Origin: Cyanobium sp. FACHB-13342
GTDB taxonomy: Bacteria > Cyanobacteriota > Cyanobacteriia > PCC-6307 > Cyanobiaceae
Assembly: GCF_014697415.1 (NCBI RefSeq)
Contig: NZ_JACJRT010000012.1
Coordinates: 1 to 62,472 of the forward strand
DNA length: 62,472 nt
Direction: 5' to 3'
The number at the start of each line of letters is the position of its first letter. Positions within the stretch are counted from its first letter, which is position 1. Both the position numbers and the translations under genes were made by a program. Below the pieces are notes generated by a model that ran no database searches, was not told where the DNA came from, and worked only from the letters and a program-made list of their open reading frames with translations. Shown one piece after another: positions 38,139-44,407 of this stretch.

Positions 38139-40073
38139 TTGAACCCAACCTCGAGCACCCCGTTGAGCACTGCCTCCACCAGCGCGCGGCCAGCTGAGCC
38201 CCTATCCGCGGCCCTGGTGGAGGGACGCACCCCCAGCCTCAAGGAACCGCTGCTGCGGGATGGGCGACTGCTGTGGCTGGAACAGCGCCCCCAGGAGCAG
38301 GGCCGCACCACCTTGATGTTGCGACCGGCAGGGAGCGCCGAGGCCATGGAGCTCACCCCAAGCCCCAGCAACCTGCGCAGTCGGGTGCACGAGTACGGCG
38401 GCGGGGTCTACGCCATCGAGGGCAACGATCTGGTGTTCATCGACGACGGCGATCGCTGCCTCTGGCATCTGCATCTGCCCAGCGACCCCGCCGGCTCAGA
38501 CCGCACCCCACGGCGGCTCACCACCCCTGGGCCCCGGGCCTTCGCCGATGGACTGATTGATCTGCCCCGTCGACGCTGGCTCGGCGTGATGGAAGCCGAA
38601 GGCCGCGACCAGCTAGTGGCCGTGCCCCTGGCCGGTGGCGAACCGCAGCGGTTGCATCAGCCGGCCGACTTCTGCGGCTATGCCGCCCTGAGCCCCGATG
38701 GCCGCCAGCTGGCCTGGGTGGAGTGGCAGCAACCGGCCATGCCCTGGCAGCGCAGCCAACTGTGGCTCGCGGCCGTGACCGCAGACGGCAACCTGACGGA
38801 AGCGCGGCCCGTGATGGGGCTGGGCCGGGATGGCGGCGACACCGGGGCGATCTCGGTGTTTCAGCCCCTGTGGATCGGTCCCACCGAACTGGTGGTGGCC
38901 AGCGACGCCTCGGGCTGGTGGAATCTGCAGCGCCTCGACACCAGCAGCGGCACCTGGCAGCCCCTGTTGCCCCTGGAGGCCGAATTCGGCATGCCCCAGT
39001 GGGTGTATGGCATGCGCACCACCGCCTGGGACGGCCAGCAGTTGATCGCTGCGGCCTGTCGGGAGGGGGCCTGGCAGCTGGGCCGGGTGCATCTGACACC
39101 GGAACGGGTGGGCACTCCGGCCGCCTGGCAGCCCCTGGCGCAACCCTTCGACGATCTGGCCTGCCTGAGTGCGGAAGCGGGGCGGCTGGTGGCGATCGCC
39201 AGCAATCCCACCAGCCCGGAGGGGCTGCTGGAGTTGGAGCTCAACAGCGGCAGGTGGCTGCACACGCCACTGGCCTCCTGCCCGCTTCCACGGGAGGCGA
39301 TCAGTCCATCCGAACCCCTGTGGTTTGCGGGCCACGGCGGCGCCCCCACCCACGCCTGGTTCTATCCGCCGTGGGGCGGCGCCCATCCCGAGGCCCCCCT
39401 ACTGGTGAAGGGCCACGGCGGGCCCACTGCCATGGCACAACGGGGCCTAAACCTGGCCATCCAGTTCTGGACCTCGCGGGGCTGGGGGGTGGTGGATGTG
39501 AATTACGGCGGCTCCACCGGCTTCGGGCGCAACTACCGCGAGCGGCTCGATGGCCAGTGGGGCGTGGTGGATGTGGAGGACTGCGCCGCAGCTGCCCGGG
39601 CCCTGGTGGCGGCGGGGAAAGCCAGCCCTGCGCGCATCGCCATCGAAGGGGGCAGTGCCGGCGGCTTCACCGTCCTCGCCGCCCTCTGCTTCACCGATGT
39701 CTTTCGCGCCGGCGCGAGTCGGTACGGCGTCACCGACCCCAGCGCGTTGGCGCGGGAGACCCATCGCTTTGAAGCCCGCTATCTCGATGACCTGATCGGG
39801 CCCTGGCCGGACGCACAAGCCACCTACGAAGCCCGCTCTCCGCTGGCCCATGCCGACCGCATCCGCTGCCCGGTGATTTTTTTCCAGGGCCTCGACGACC
39901 TGGTGGTGCCGCCAGCCCAGACCGATCGGATGGCGGCAGCGCTGCAAGCCAACGGCGTCCCGGTGGAGGTGCACCGCTTTGCCGGTGAGGGCCACGGCTT
40001 CCGCAGCGGCAGGGTGCGAATCCAGGTGCTCGAAGCCACGGAAGCGTTCTTCAGGCGCCACTTCGAGCTGTGA
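38139..40073 (+). CDS. S9 family (prolyl oligopeptidase-like) peptidase
   Basis: A 644-residue protein. The first about 390 residues form a WD/TolB-like beta-propeller (EYGGGVYAIEGNDLVFIDDG; AALSPDGRQLAWVEW), and the C-terminal about 250 form the alpha/beta-hydrolase with nucleophile Ser in GGSAGGFT, Asp in QGLDDLVVPP and His in GEGHGF. No signal peptide. It resembles the acylaminoacyl/dipeptidyl peptidase type of S9. The TTG start is the first in-frame start before the conserved VEGRTPSLKEP. Its stop overlaps the gltS start by four bases. Confidence 0.88.
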   Translation: MNPTSSTPLSTASTSARPAEPLSAALVEGRTPSLKEPLLRDGRLLWLEQRPQEQGRTTLMLRPAGSAEAMELTPSPSNLRSRVHEYGGGVYAIEGNDLVFIDDGDRCLWHLHLPSDPAGSDRTPRRLTTPGPRAFADGLIDLPRRRWLGVMEAEGRDQLVAVPLAGGEPQRLHQPADFCGYAALSPDGRQLAWVEWQQPAMPWQRSQLWLAAVTADGNLTEARPVMGLGRDGGDTGAISVFQPLWIGPTELVVASDASGWWNLQRLDTSSGTWQPLLPLEAEFGMPQWVYGMRTTAWDGQQLIAAACREGAWQLGRVHLTPERVGTPAAWQPLAQPFDDLACLSAEAGRLVAIASNPTSPEGLLELELNSGRWLHTPLASCPLPREAISPSEPLWFAGHGGAPTHAWFYPPWGGAHPEAPLLVKGHGGPTAMAQRGLNLAIQFWTSRGWGVVDVNYGGSTGFGRNYRERLDGQWGVVDVEDCAAAARALVAAGKASPARIAIEGGSAGGFTVLAALCFTDVFRAGASRYGVTDPSALARETHRFEARYLDDLIGPWPDAQATYEARSPLAHADRIRCPVIFFQGLDDLVVPPAQTDRMAAALQANGVPVEVHRFAGEGHGFRSGRVRIQVLEATEAFFRRHFEL

Positions 40074-41434
40074 GCCCCATCAGCGCCCTGCTGCCCGATC
40101 TGGAACTGCTGGCCTTCGCCATGGCCTGCCTCAGCCTGATCCTGGCGGTGGGACGGGGGATCGGCACCCGCCTGCAGCTGCGGCTGTGGGGCGTCCCCGA
40201 AGCGTTGGTGGCTGGCTTGCTGGGCCTGCTGCTGGCCCCGGGCGGCCCCCTGCCGCTGCTGCCGCCCCAGGTGCTCCAGCTCTGGGCCGATCTGCCCCTG
40301 GTGCTGCTCACCCTGGTGTTCGGCTCGCTGTTGCTGGGCAAACCGCTGCCCAAGCTGAAGGGTCTCTGGCGACCGGTGTCCGGCCAGGTGTCCCTGGCCC
40401 TGGTGCTGGCCTTTGGCCAGTACGTGGTGGCCGGCCTGGCGGTGCTGCTGGTGCTGCAGCCCTGGCTGGGGGTGAGCCCGATCATGGCCTGCCTGATTGA
40501 GGTGGCCTACGAGGGGGGCCACGGCTCCGCCGCTGCCATGGGTCCGAGCTATGCGGCCCTGGGCTTCCCCGGCGGCCAGGCCCTCGGCCTGGCCATGGCC
40601 ACCGTGGGACTGCTCTCCTCCACCCTGGTGGGCGGGTTGGTGGTGGTGCTGGCCCGCAAGCGTGGCTGGTTGCTGGCCGATCGACCTGCCCCAGCCCGCA
40701 CCCCTGCCGATGCCGAAGCCACTCCCCCCCCAGGGCCTGCCCCCGGCGCCGCAACCTGGGCGGTGAATCTGGCCCTGGCGGGCGTGGCCGTGCTGGTGGG
40801 CGTGGGCCTGCTGGCCGCCCTGCGCTGGCTCACGGCGGGGCTGGGTGACGGCGTCGCCCTGGTGGTCGACTCCCTGCCGGTGTTTCCCCTGGCGATCGTG
40901 GGTTCGCTGTTGATGCGCCTGGTTCTGGAGCGCAGCGGCCAGGCCCACTGGGCCTCCGCACCGGTGCAGAGCCAGATCGGCACCCTCTCGGCGGATCTGC
41001 TGATCACCGCCGCCACCGCCGGGCTGGATCTGGGCCTGCTGCGGGCCGACTGGCTGCCGCTCACGGTGCTGGCGGTGAGCGGCCTGGCCTGGAACCTGGG
41101 GGTCACCCTGCTGCTGGCGCCACGGGTTCTGCCGGCGGACTGGTTTGAGCGGGCGGTGATTGAGTTCGGTCAGGCCACCGGTGTGGCGGCCAGCGGCCTG
41201 CTGCTGCTGCTGCGCATGGCCGACCCGGACGACCGCAGCGATGCGCTGCCGGCCTTCTCCATCAAACAACTGCTGCTGCAACCCTTTCTGGCCGGTGGGG
41301 TGATCACCGTGGTGGCACCCCTGGCGGTGGCGAGCTGGGGCTTACCCCTCTGGACAGGCGCCTGCCTGGCAGTGGTGGTACTCGCAGGGGGCACCGGCCT
41401 GCTGCTCGCCCGGATTCAGGCCCCCGCCCCATAG
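40070..41434 (+). CDS. gltS: Sodium/glutamate symporter family protein
   Basis: A 454-residue transporter with about eleven membrane segments in two halves separated by a polar loop (residues about 210-235). The GltS hallmark MACLIEVAYEGGHGSAAAMG follows the fifth helix. Characterised members import glutamate with Na+. The GTG start overlaps the peptidase stop (GTGA), so the two are probably co-transcribed; a link between peptide hydrolysis and amino acid uptake is plausible but inferred. The 3' end overlaps the convergent aldolase gene by 19 bases. Confidence 0.83.
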   Translation: MSPISALLPDLELLAFAMACLSLILAVGRGIGTRLQLRLWGVPEALVAGLLGLLLAPGGPLPLLPPQVLQLWADLPLVLLTLVFGSLLLGKPLPKLKGLWRPVSGQVSLALVLAFGQYVVAGLAVLLVLQPWLGVSPIMACLIEVAYEGGHGSAAAMGPSYAALGFPGGQALGLAMATVGLLSSTLVGGLVVVLARKRGWLLADRPAPARTPADAEATPPPGPAPGAATWAVNLALAGVAVLVGVGLLAALRWLTAGLGDGVALVVDSLPVFPLAIVGSLLMRLVLERSGQAHWASAPVQSQIGTLSADLLITAATAGLDLGLLRADWLPLTVLAVSGLAWNLGVTLLLAPRVLPADWFERAVIEFGQATGVAASGLLLLLRMADPDDRSDALPAFSIKQLLLQPFLAGGVITVVAPLAVASWGLPLWTGACLAVVVLAGGTGLLLARIQAPAP

Positions 41435-42096
41435 AGCAGGGTGCGGAACTGGTGGTGCACGGCCGCCATCTGCTCAGGGCTGAGCAACGGCGGCTCGCCC
41501 AGTTGCAGGGCCTGGAGATACATCTGGGCCAGGGTTTCCACCTCAATGGCAATCCGCAGGGCCTGGTCGAGGCTGGCTCCCAGGGCCACCTGGCCGTGCT
41601 GGGCCAGCAGGCAGGCCCGCCGGTCCACCAGGGCCGCCACCGCCAAATCAGACAGCTCAGCGGTGCCGAAGGTGGCGTAGGGGGCGCAGCGGATGTCATC
41701 GCCGCCGGCCACCGCGGTCATGTAGTGAAAGGGGGGGATGGCGCGGCCATGGCAGGCCAGGGCCGTGGCGTGGATGGAATGGCAGTGGAGCACCGCCGCA
41801 ATTTCCGGCCGGCCCGCCAGGATGTCCGCATGGAGGCGCCACTCCGAGGAGGGACGCCTGGAGCCCCCATCCCGGCAGCCCCCAGCCAGATCCAAGGCCA
41901 CCAGATCCTGCGGCTGCATCAGCTCGTAGGGCAGGGAACTGGGGGTGATCAGCAGCCCACCAGGAATCCGCACCGACAGATTGCCCGAGGTGCCCTGGTT
42001 GAGGCCCGAGGCATTCAGGCGCCGGGCCACCGTCACCAGCTGTTGACGCAGCTCGGCCTCGGAGCCGGGGGCCAGGACAGGGGGGACGGCGGGCAA
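41416..42096 (-). CDS. Class II aldolase (FucA/Ald2-like)
   Basis: A 226-residue zinc aldolase. It opens with a helix GLNQGTSGNLSVR (phosphate site), a Glu in SSEWRLHADI, a His pair VLHCHSIHATA and a third His in LLAQHGQVALG. This pattern matches L-fuculose-phosphate aldolases and Ald2-type enzymes rather than a dedicated MtnB dehydratase. In the mtnA operon it would split the 1-phosphoketose from methylthioadenosine or deoxyadenosine into dihydroxyacetone phosphate and an aldehyde; that is inferred from context. TTG start, five bases after the kinase stop. Confidence 0.82.
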   Translation of the reverse strand: MPAVPPVLAPGSEAELRQQLVTVARRLNASGLNQGTSGNLSVRIPGGLLITPSSLPYELMQPQDLVALDLAGGCRDGGSRRPSSEWRLHADILAGRPEIAAVLHCHSIHATALACHGRAIPPFHYMTAVAGGDDIRCAPYATFGTAELSDLAVAALVDRRACLLAQHGQVALGASLDQALRIAIEVETLAQMYLQALQLGEPPLLSPEQMAAVHHQFRTLLYGAGA

Positions 42097-42101
42097 GGGG
42101 T

Positions 42102-43253
42102 TCAGCGGCGCAGGGGGAAACCGGAGGGATCCGGCAAGGCGGCCCAGGCGTCGATTTCCAGGGCGTAGGCGGCATGGCGCTGGATCGCATCATCCATGAA
42201 CAGGGCGGCCCGAATCGGCGTATCCGGCCCCCGCGAGAAGCCGTGCATCGCCACACCAGCGGTGATGCAGCGCAGGGCCGACAGCTGCATGTCGTAGCGC
42301 GCCTCGCTGAGCGGGTAATCGCGCACGCCGCGGTTCACCAGCTCCTGGTGCCAGGCCAGCAGCAGGTCGTCATGGCGCCCCAAACGCTGCGCCTGGGGCG
42401 TACTGCCGCCCACCAGAAACGCGACGTCGATCGCGGCCACACTGCGGCTCGCCCAGGACCAATCGATGATCACCGATTCGGGATCCTCCACCGTGTGAGC
42501 GAACAGCAGATTGTCGGCGCGGAGGTCGCCATGCACGAGGGTCCAGGGCCGGTTCTCCAGGGCTGCATCCACCGCGCTGGTCTGTTCGAGAACAGCGCGA
42601 TACAGCTGGCACACATCCGACCCAAAACGCACGCCGTAGGTGGCAAAAAAATCCTCAACGATCTCGGCGTTGGGATTGGAGAACCAGAAGCCATGGTTTG
42701 GTAGCCAGTCATGCTGGTGCAACGCCGGATCCATCCAGAATTCAGCGTGGATGGCGGCCATGCGCTGGATCGAAGCCAACGTTTCCTGGTAGGTGAGGCC
42801 GATCACCTGGTCGCCGGAACGCAGGTGGGTGAGATCTTCCATCAGCAACCAGGACGGCGCACCGGCATGGGTGGCAAACACCGCCGGCTGGTGATTGCTG
42901 AGCCTGGGGGTGCAATGGGTGTACACCCCCACCTCCCGCCCGAAGGCATTGTTCAGGCGGCTGAACGCATTGAAATCCTGATCGGAGGTTTCGCTTTTGA
43001 GGATCACGCTGGCGGGGCCCGCACCAGGGGGATCACAGCTCAATTCCAGTCGCCAGGTGGTGGATTGAAATCCCCTGGCTTCGCCCAGCAGCTTGGCCTC
43101 CAAGCTCTTCACCGTGGTTCCGAGAACCTCGCCAATCCAGTCGGGTTCGGGCTGCTGGACCACAGGGTCAGTCATGGGGTCAAGCATCGGGTCAGGCATG
43201 GGGTGATCAAGCGCCTCATTCGATGAGGCATCGCGGTGGAACGTCCAATCCAT
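42102..43253 (-). CDS. APH-fold phosphotransferase in the mtnA operon
   Basis: A 383-residue kinase of the aminoglycoside/choline kinase fold. The Brenner motif is LVHGDLRADNLLF (catalytic Asp) and the metal motif is IIDWSWA; a Lys in VILKSET anchors ATP. Its substrate is not known. Because it lies between mtnA and an aldolase, a methylthioribose or 5-deoxyribose kinase is the leading idea; MtnK is also an APH-fold protein. Residues 18-30 are a short repeat (MPDPMLDPMTDP) that may be mistaken N-terminal extension; a later start is possible. Confidence 0.75.
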   Translation of the reverse strand: MDWTFHRDASSNEALDHPMPDPMLDPMTDPVVQQPEPDWIGEVLGTTVKSLEAKLLGEARGFQSTTWRLELSCDPPGAGPASVILKSETSDQDFNAFSRLNNAFGREVGVYTHCTPRLSNHQPAVFATHAGAPSWLLMEDLTHLRSGDQVIGLTYQETLASIQRMAAIHAEFWMDPALHQHDWLPNHGFWFSNPNAEIVEDFFATYGVRFGSDVCQLYRAVLEQTSAVDAALENRPWTLVHGDLRADNLLFAHTVEDPESVIIDWSWASRSVAAIDVAFLVGGSTPQAQRLGRHDDLLLAWHQELVNRGVRDYPLSEARYDMQLSALRCITAGVAMHGFSRGPDTPIRAALFMDDAIQRHAAYALEIDAWAALPDPSGFPLRR

Positions 43254-43279
43254 GGACGTCAGCGAACGTCACGGCCGCC

Positions 43280-44407
43280 TCACGCATCATGGTCGTAGAG
43301 CTGCCGCAAGCCTGGCTCCGAAGCCTGGGCCACCCCCCGCTCGGTGATCAGGGCCGTCACCAGCCGGGCCGGGGTGACATCGAACGCGGGGTTGAAGCCG
43401 GGGCTGCCGTTGGGGGTGAGCTGCACCGTGGCGAGCTGCCCCTCAACGGAGCTGCCGCCCCCGCCGCCCAGCAGCCGCCCTTGGATGGCCGTCACCTCCT
43501 CGGCACTGCGCGCTTCGATCGGGATCTCGGCCACGCCGTCATCGATCGTCCAGTCGATCGTGGAGGCCGGCAGGGCCACATAGAAGGGCACGCCGTTGTC
43601 GTGGGCCGCCAGGGCCTTGAGGTAGGTGCCGATCTTGTTGCAGACATCGCCGCGGCGGGTGGTGCGGTCGGTGCCCACGATCACCGCATCCACCTGGCCG
43701 TGCTGCATCAAGTGGCCGCCGGCGTTGTCCACGATCACGGTGTGGGGCACCCCCTCCTGACCCAGCTCAAAGGCCGTCAGGGAGGCGCCCTGGTTGCGGG
43801 GGCGGGTCTCATCCACCCACACATGGATGGGAAGGCCGGCGCGGTGGGCCTTGTAGATGGGGGCGAGGGCCGTGCCCCAATCCACCGTGGCCAGCCAGCC
43901 GGCATTGCAGTGGGTGAGCACGTTGAAGGGTTGGCCCTGGCGTTCGGCCGGCCGCGCCGCCGCCAGCTCCTGGAAGATGCGCAGCCCGTGGTCGCCGATC
44001 GCCTCGCACATGGCGACGTCCTCATCGGCGATCGCCGCGGCCTCCGCCTGGGCCGCCTCGGCCCGCTCGGCCGGCGGCAGCGGCTGCACCTTGGACCGCA
44101 CCCGCTCCAGGGCCCAGCGCAGGTTGATCGCCGTGGGGCGGGTGGCATTGAGCGCCTCAAAGGCAGCAGCCAAGGAGGCGTCACCCGGATCGGCCTGCAG
44201 GGCCAGCATCAGCCCGTAGGCCCCGGTCACGCCGATCAGCGGGGCGCCGCGCACCACCATCGTGCGGATGGCTTCGGCAGCTTCCGCGCAACTGCTCAAG
44301 CTGCGCGTTGTGAACCGATGGGGCAACTGGGTCTGGTCGATCACCCCCACTGCGCGGCCATCCGGCTCCAGCCAGATCGTGCGCCAGGCCTTGCCATCGA
44401 TGTTCAT
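43280..44407 (-). CDS. mtnA: S-methyl-5-thioribose-1-phosphate isomerase
   Basis: A 375-residue isomerase that turns methylthioribose-1-phosphate (or deoxyribose-1-phosphate) into the ribulose form. It has the family marks [12 protein letters not shown], the catalytic Cys in [10 protein letters not shown] and the catalytic Asp in [13 protein letters not shown]. Full length for the family. Start ATG gives [12 protein letters not shown]. It is the first gene of the leftward mtnA-kinase-aldolase operon (gaps 26 and 5 bases). Confidence 0.96.

Follow-up and report, generated by a model that had tools for sequence, protein, structure and literature searches.

An mtnA-aldolase pair as a probable DHAP shunt beside complete methionine salvage in Cyanobium, and the kinase gene that most likely came between the two

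We propose, with a probability of roughly 0.68, that the mtnA and class II aldolase genes of Cyanobium sp. FACHB-13342 are a two-gene part of a phosphorylase-type DHAP shunt that coexists with complete methionine salvage, and that the kinase gene now lying between them arrived later. The gene content, gene order, conservation and insertion on which this reading draws were observed directly in the genomes. The mtnA-aldolase pair is already of a known type; the inserted kinase is new as an observation only.

The three-gene row and its gene models

The window, that is, the whole stretch of 62,472 nucleotides that we analyzed, makes up contig 4 of a genome of 2,365,942 bases in 18 contigs with a completeness of 99.39%. 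Its list of open reading frames held three leftward ORFs of 375, 383 and 226 amino acids, in agreement with an earlier sequence-only reading of this DNA that had described three leftward genes:

43280..44407, minus strand: mtnA, S-methyl-5-thioribose-1-phosphate isomerase (TIGR00512, 1t9k, sole PF01008 match in the genome)
42102..43253, minus strand: ORF of an APH-fold, EcKL-type kinase between mtnA and the aldolase gene (PF02958, PF01636; start probably M27 at 43175)
41416..42096, minus strand: class II (FucA-like) aldolase with a TTG start (PF00596, FucA structures, place behind mtnA)

The families assigned by that reading (MtnA, APH-fold kinase and FucA-like aldolase) were confirmed by the profiles and, for the aldolase, the FucA structures given above. 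The aldolase gene and a Glt_symporter-like gene (40070-41434, plus strand) run toward each other and share 19 bases at 41416-41434.

The gaps of 26 and 5 bases reported for this row were upheld in part. The 5 bases between the kinase and aldolase genes stand, but the 26 bases between mtnA and the kinase gene were based on the first possible ATG. When the kinase was compared with that of a sister species (genome G296), codons 1-26 had a dN of 0.15 and a dS of 0.10, versus 0.011 and 0.18 (dN/dS about 0.06) for the codons after 26. In a structure model, residues 1-30 had a pLDDT below 50 (83.5 for the whole model), and most of 14 aligned relatives start later than this first ATG. Because the first 26 codons are unconstrained, their residues are poorly modeled and most relatives begin downstream, the start is probably M27 (43175), and the gap behind mtnA would therefore be about 104 bases, up from 26.

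Methionine salvage genes and the shared isomerase

MtnA scored 417.3 bits against TIGR00512 (cut-off 279), and its closest solved structure was 1t9k (E 6.3e-68). The window's mtnA is the only gene of the IF-2B family (PF01008) in the genome; judging from its family, the enzyme would isomerise 5-deoxyribose 1-phosphate besides its methylthio substrate. MtnP is encoded elsewhere in the genome, outside the cluster (TIGR01694, 318.7 bits, cut-off 274.9). Because MtnP was the sole PNP_UDP_1 match in the genome, this search found no second, separate nucleosidase for MTA. The second class II aldolase-domain gene of the genome proved to be an MtnB-MtnC fusion, with 197.2 bits over a cut-off of 137.1 for TIGR03328 and 227.2 over 128.1 for TIGR01691:

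8143-10074 of contig 16 in the window's genome (G000; locus L004): MtnB-MtnC fusion ORF

MtnB and MtnC are also fused in several genomes of the same genus, and separate matches occur in many other members of the family. One ARD-family dioxygenase gene was present (PF03079, 105.9 bits over 27). The long ORF that holds the ARD domain had no NCBIfam match, and its assignment as MtnD is made on the Pfam ARD domain together with matches in all 29 genomes that carry a relative of the kinase. Profile searches thus placed the full set of MtnP, MtnA, MtnB, MtnC and MtnD in this genome.

The sequence-only reading had taken the cluster to work instead of the methionine salvage route, a claim contradicted by MtnP, the MtnB-MtnC fusion, the ARD gene and the single MtnA; as a stand-in for methionine salvage the cluster was ruled out. 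Its remark that no mtnB, mtnC or mtnD genes are visible holds within the window but not for the genome, which carries the fusion and the ARD gene. The search for mtnP, mtnB, mtnC and mtnD that it had suggested found all four, which argues against a replacement of salvage. Since the window's mtnA is the sole IF-2B gene, methionine salvage must share it. That is, the 5-deoxyribose pathway and methionine salvage share one isomerase here: compared with known methionine salvage, the whole set is present and needs the window's mtnA, and the aldolase would be an extra branch after MtnA.

The same arrangement recurred in other genomes. Among the 29 kinase-bearing genomes, mtnD was found in every one and a strong mtnBC match in 27; the exceptions were G012, which had none, and G279, where a match of 25.8 bits was not counted as MtnBC. 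The mtnBC match in G032 contains stops. Genomes with both a kinase relative and the aldolase had mtnD in 21 of 21 cases and a strong mtnBC match in 20 of 21. These counts across the kinase-bearing genomes indicate that the aldolase and methionine salvage normally coexist.

The aldolase, its pairing with mtnA and the proposed shunt

The aldolase matched PF00596 with 182 bits. Its best solved relatives were FucA structures, with 189 bits for 7x78, an E. coli-type FucA, and 146 bits for 6btd, a DrdA. The best NCBIfam matches were likewise FucA models, at 219.9 and 199.7 bits, both under their cut-offs of 264 and 400. In an alignment to FucA, residues E85, H104, H106 and H167 fell on the catalytic Glu and the three metal-binding His, bearing out the Fuc-aldolase-like metal ligands noted earlier from the letters. 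Also kept were PSSEW, HxH and, further downstream, QHG, the stretches that in FucA presumably bear the catalytic glutamate and the metal histidines. Because the score lies nearer to FucA (7x78) than to 6btd, we inferred the substrate from gene order, and we propose that the enzyme is a 5-deoxyribulose-1-phosphate / methylthioribulose-1-phosphate aldolase.

We examined this gene order in a sample of 299 genomes from the order. Aldolase matches at E 0.001 were found in 114 genomes, 72 of which had a strong aldolase (242 bits or more); the other 42, with best matches of 52 bits or fewer, were dropped, and many of them look like MtnB. mtnA was present in 141 of the 299, and the pairing count drew on the 72 strong aldolase matches together with 80 mtnA rows, the latter from genomes with an aldolase or a kinase relative. 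In 49 of these 72 genomes the aldolase gene follows mtnA on the same strand at a distance of no more than 100 bases. The kinase separates the two genes in 2 of the 72. In another 13 the aldolase is on the same strand at 230 to 11,634 bases from mtnA, and in 8 it is far off, on another contig or without an mtnA that was found. Against our main explanation, then, 21 of the 72 genomes have mtnA and the aldolase gene separated or with something in between, the two split by the kinase excluded. In three genomes (G022, G052, G216) a candidate ATG of the aldolase shares bases with the stop of mtnA.

A wider sample of the phylum (n = 386) held an aldolase of at least 50% identity in 20 genomes, 19 of them in this family; at the next loci in that sample (L177-L187), none of 11 had mtnA within 1.5 kb of the aldolase. 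In this family of cyanobacteria mtnA and the aldolase gene have long been paired. One genus group, g10, has members (G013, G014, G021, G029, G041, G048, G058, and also G062, G071, G078, G093, G101 and G280) with a different mtnA, about 50% identical, which lies close to a weak aldolase-domain match resembling mtnB; in the order sample these members lack a strong aldolase.

The pairing bears on two other readings of the aldolase. It could simply be an L-fuculose-1-phosphate aldolase, with no metabolic significance to its location behind mtnA, and FucA does supply both its best NCBIfam models, albeit below their cut-offs, and its best solved relatives. That 49 of 72 genomes in one family have it immediately after mtnA is, however, far above chance, and we consider this reading very improbable. 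Alternatively, the enzyme might cleave methylthioribulose 1-phosphate to DHAP and methylthioacetaldehyde, competing with MtnB, with the loss of sulfur from methionine. It adjoins the only MtnA of the genome, and Ald2 enzymes accept both deoxy and methylthio substrates according to a study of the shunt (PMC10986504). Yet with MtnB-MtnC and ARD all encoded in the genome, such cleavage would waste a methionine precursor, and this second reading is also improbable, if less so than the first.

In the preferred reading, a DHAP shunt over complete salvage, the enzyme activities and the split of substrates would follow from what is known of the families. MtnP would split 5'-deoxyadenosine, which comes from radical SAM enzymes, to adenine and 5-deoxyribose 1-phosphate, and would split methylthioadenosine to adenine and methylthioribose 1-phosphate. 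The single MtnA would isomerise both sugar 1-phosphates to the ribulose 1-phosphates. The methylthio sugar would then pass to the MtnB-MtnC fusion, then to acireductone dioxygenase and on to methionine, and the deoxy sugar would go to the aldolase, yielding DHAP and acetaldehyde. The kinase gene, as a later arrival, would give a working protein, to judge from purifying selection, and would be dispensable for the shunt steps. The layout of a DHAP shunt had been claimed for all three genes; MtnA and the FucA-like aldolase fit its last two steps, but the kinase step was not supported.

DHAP shunts occur as drdK-drdI-drdA in Bacillus thuringiensis, as mtnK-mtnA-ald2 in E. coli and as an MtnP type in Rhodospirillum. 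As in these, an MtnA-family isomerase is found here beside a FucA-like class II aldolase, although interrupted by the kinase, and the source of sugar 1-phosphate that is present is MtnP, MtnK being absent from the genome in a TIGR01767 search. Unlike those clusters, MtnP lies outside the row, the clustered kinase is not of the MtnK family, the isomerase is common to full methionine salvage, and the aldolase has its better score with an E. coli-type FucA. The MtnP-type shunt is a known variant (PMC10986504). According to the same study the E. coli shunt did not serve detoxification, a point against our reading. Gene clusters for a three-enzyme 5-deoxyribose pathway have been described in six phyla, in a paper that mentions in passing that the isomerase of Synechococcus sp. 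WH7805 clusters with drdA and not with salvage genes (PMC6079011, main text). WH7805 belongs to the same cyanobacterial family and resembles our case; unlike here, no kinase is named in its isomerase-drdA cluster in that main text. The cyanobacteria covered in another report had MtnP and lacked an Ald2 homologue, those named lying outside this family, and Synechococcus elongatus, one without the homologue, excretes 5-deoxyribose and 7-deoxysedoheptulose (PMC8102628). The present pair suggests that, in contrast to the excreting S. elongatus, this family's picocyanobacteria use a dedicated aldolase to get rid of 5'-deoxyadenosine. A literature search, with most subscription journals outside its reach, found no paper in which Cyanobium is linked to either MtnA or the DHAP shunt.

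The kinase between mtnA and the aldolase gene

The kinase scored 58.7 bits over a cut-off of 22 against PF02958 (EcKL) and 32 over 23.2 against PF01636 (APH). In the alignment with 14 relatives it keeps HGDLRADN and IDW, which we take to be its catalytic motifs, and H241, G242, D243, N248 and D264 are invariant. Fold comparison with VIA-align gave tied Z scores for choline kinase (19.9), the MTR kinase 2pul (19.3) and homoserine kinase (19.2). Profiles, fold and catalytic residues agree that the kinase belongs to the EcKL/APH superfamily: it has the fold and catalytic motifs of the choline, MTR, homoserine and 25-hydroxy steroid kinases, at about 9-17% identity to solved members. A phmmer search against solved structures returned weak, unrelated-looking matches, the best being fimbrial subunits with an E-value inflated by repeats. 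The MTR kinase model TIGR01767 matched the E. coli and B. subtilis controls but nothing in this genome, and it was absent among the hits of the kinase up to E 10. The kinase was thereby ruled out as an orthologue of MtnK or DrdK.

Kinase relatives were found in 29 of the 299 order genomes, the nearest in the sister species (G296). mtnA and the aldolase gene flank the kinase (within 1.5 kb, or less at contig ends) in only two of the 29, the window's genome and G296, and neither gene was beside the kinase relative in two further members of the genus that carry one. Four genomes of the same genus (G022, G043, G052, G159) have a kinase about 81% identical that is sited elsewhere, and in them mtnA and the aldolase gene abut. 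The GC content of the kinase gene is 63.4%, versus 70.6% for mtnA and 70.2% for the aldolase gene; at third positions the values are 78.1%, 89.6% and 85.5%, respectively. The overall dN/dS of the kinase between the window's genome and G296 was 0.115, indicating that the gene is maintained by purifying selection. We concluded that the kinase is most likely a recent insertion between mtnA and the aldolase gene in one Cyanobium lineage.

The proposal that the kinase is a pathway member was thus not sustained: it lies between the two genes in 2 of 29 genomes, has no TIGR01767 match and is dispensable given MtnP. That is, because MtnP makes the sugar 1-phosphate directly, MTA and 5'-deoxyadenosine formed inside the cell need no kinase. 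A search for the three-gene neighborhood in other genomes, which the sequence-only reading had recommended, recovered it in those two kinase-bearing genomes only. More generally, three genes in a close row do not all have to serve one pathway.

Unrelated DNA has entered the gap between mtnA and the aldolase gene in 13 of the 72 genomes, as at an insertion-tolerant site. The intervening stretch holds an opposite-strand ORF in G046, presumably alcohol-dehydrogenase-like by its sequence; in G086 and G241 it holds a short ORF on the same strand. This inspection covered part of the stretch in G032 and none of that in G152. Because other stretches also interrupt the pair, gene position is weak evidence of a shared pathway.

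These observations bear on a rival reading, in which a novel kind of 5-deoxyribose/methylthioribose kinase has been recruited here so that free sugar, taken up or dephosphorylated, enters the shunt. Its gene is on the same strand and 5 bases before the aldolase gene, it is under purifying selection, its fold resembles that of the MTR kinase (though choline and homoserine kinases tie with it), relatives lie near mtnD in two other genomes, and the genome has no other MTR kinase by TIGR01767. Against this stand the missing TIGR01767 match of the kinase itself, linkage to mtnA and the aldolase gene in just 2 of 29 genomes, the 8 of 29 kinase-bearing genomes without a strong aldolase match, the presence of MtnP and the unrelated stretches that interrupt the pair elsewhere. 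We regard recruitment as unlikely. Slightly less likely again is the more specific idea that a kinase outside the MtnK family could provide a second entry to the shunt, beside MtnP, for free deoxysugar, for example sugar that other cyanobacteria excrete.

Two findings hint that the later-arrived kinase may be more than a chance neighbor. One relative is about 2 kb from mtnD in G030 (L079, 5042-8755) and another about 4 kb from it in a Lake Pavin MAG (L129, 1395-7086); the two insertions are separate, one on each side of the mtnD-cobI region. By a hand count of about 30 distinct cyanobacterial kinase places, some with flanks that end at contig ends, 2 are near mtnD, or 3 when the window locus is included. 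The aldolase is also commoner among kinase-bearing genomes, 21 of which have a strong match, although the rough Fisher test (p = 0.012) ignores kinship and deserves little weight. No common partner was found among the neighbors of the kinase relatives; four loci share one neighborhood. Kinase relatives are broken by stops or split in several genomes (G012, G065, G066, G165), which suggests repeated gain and loss.
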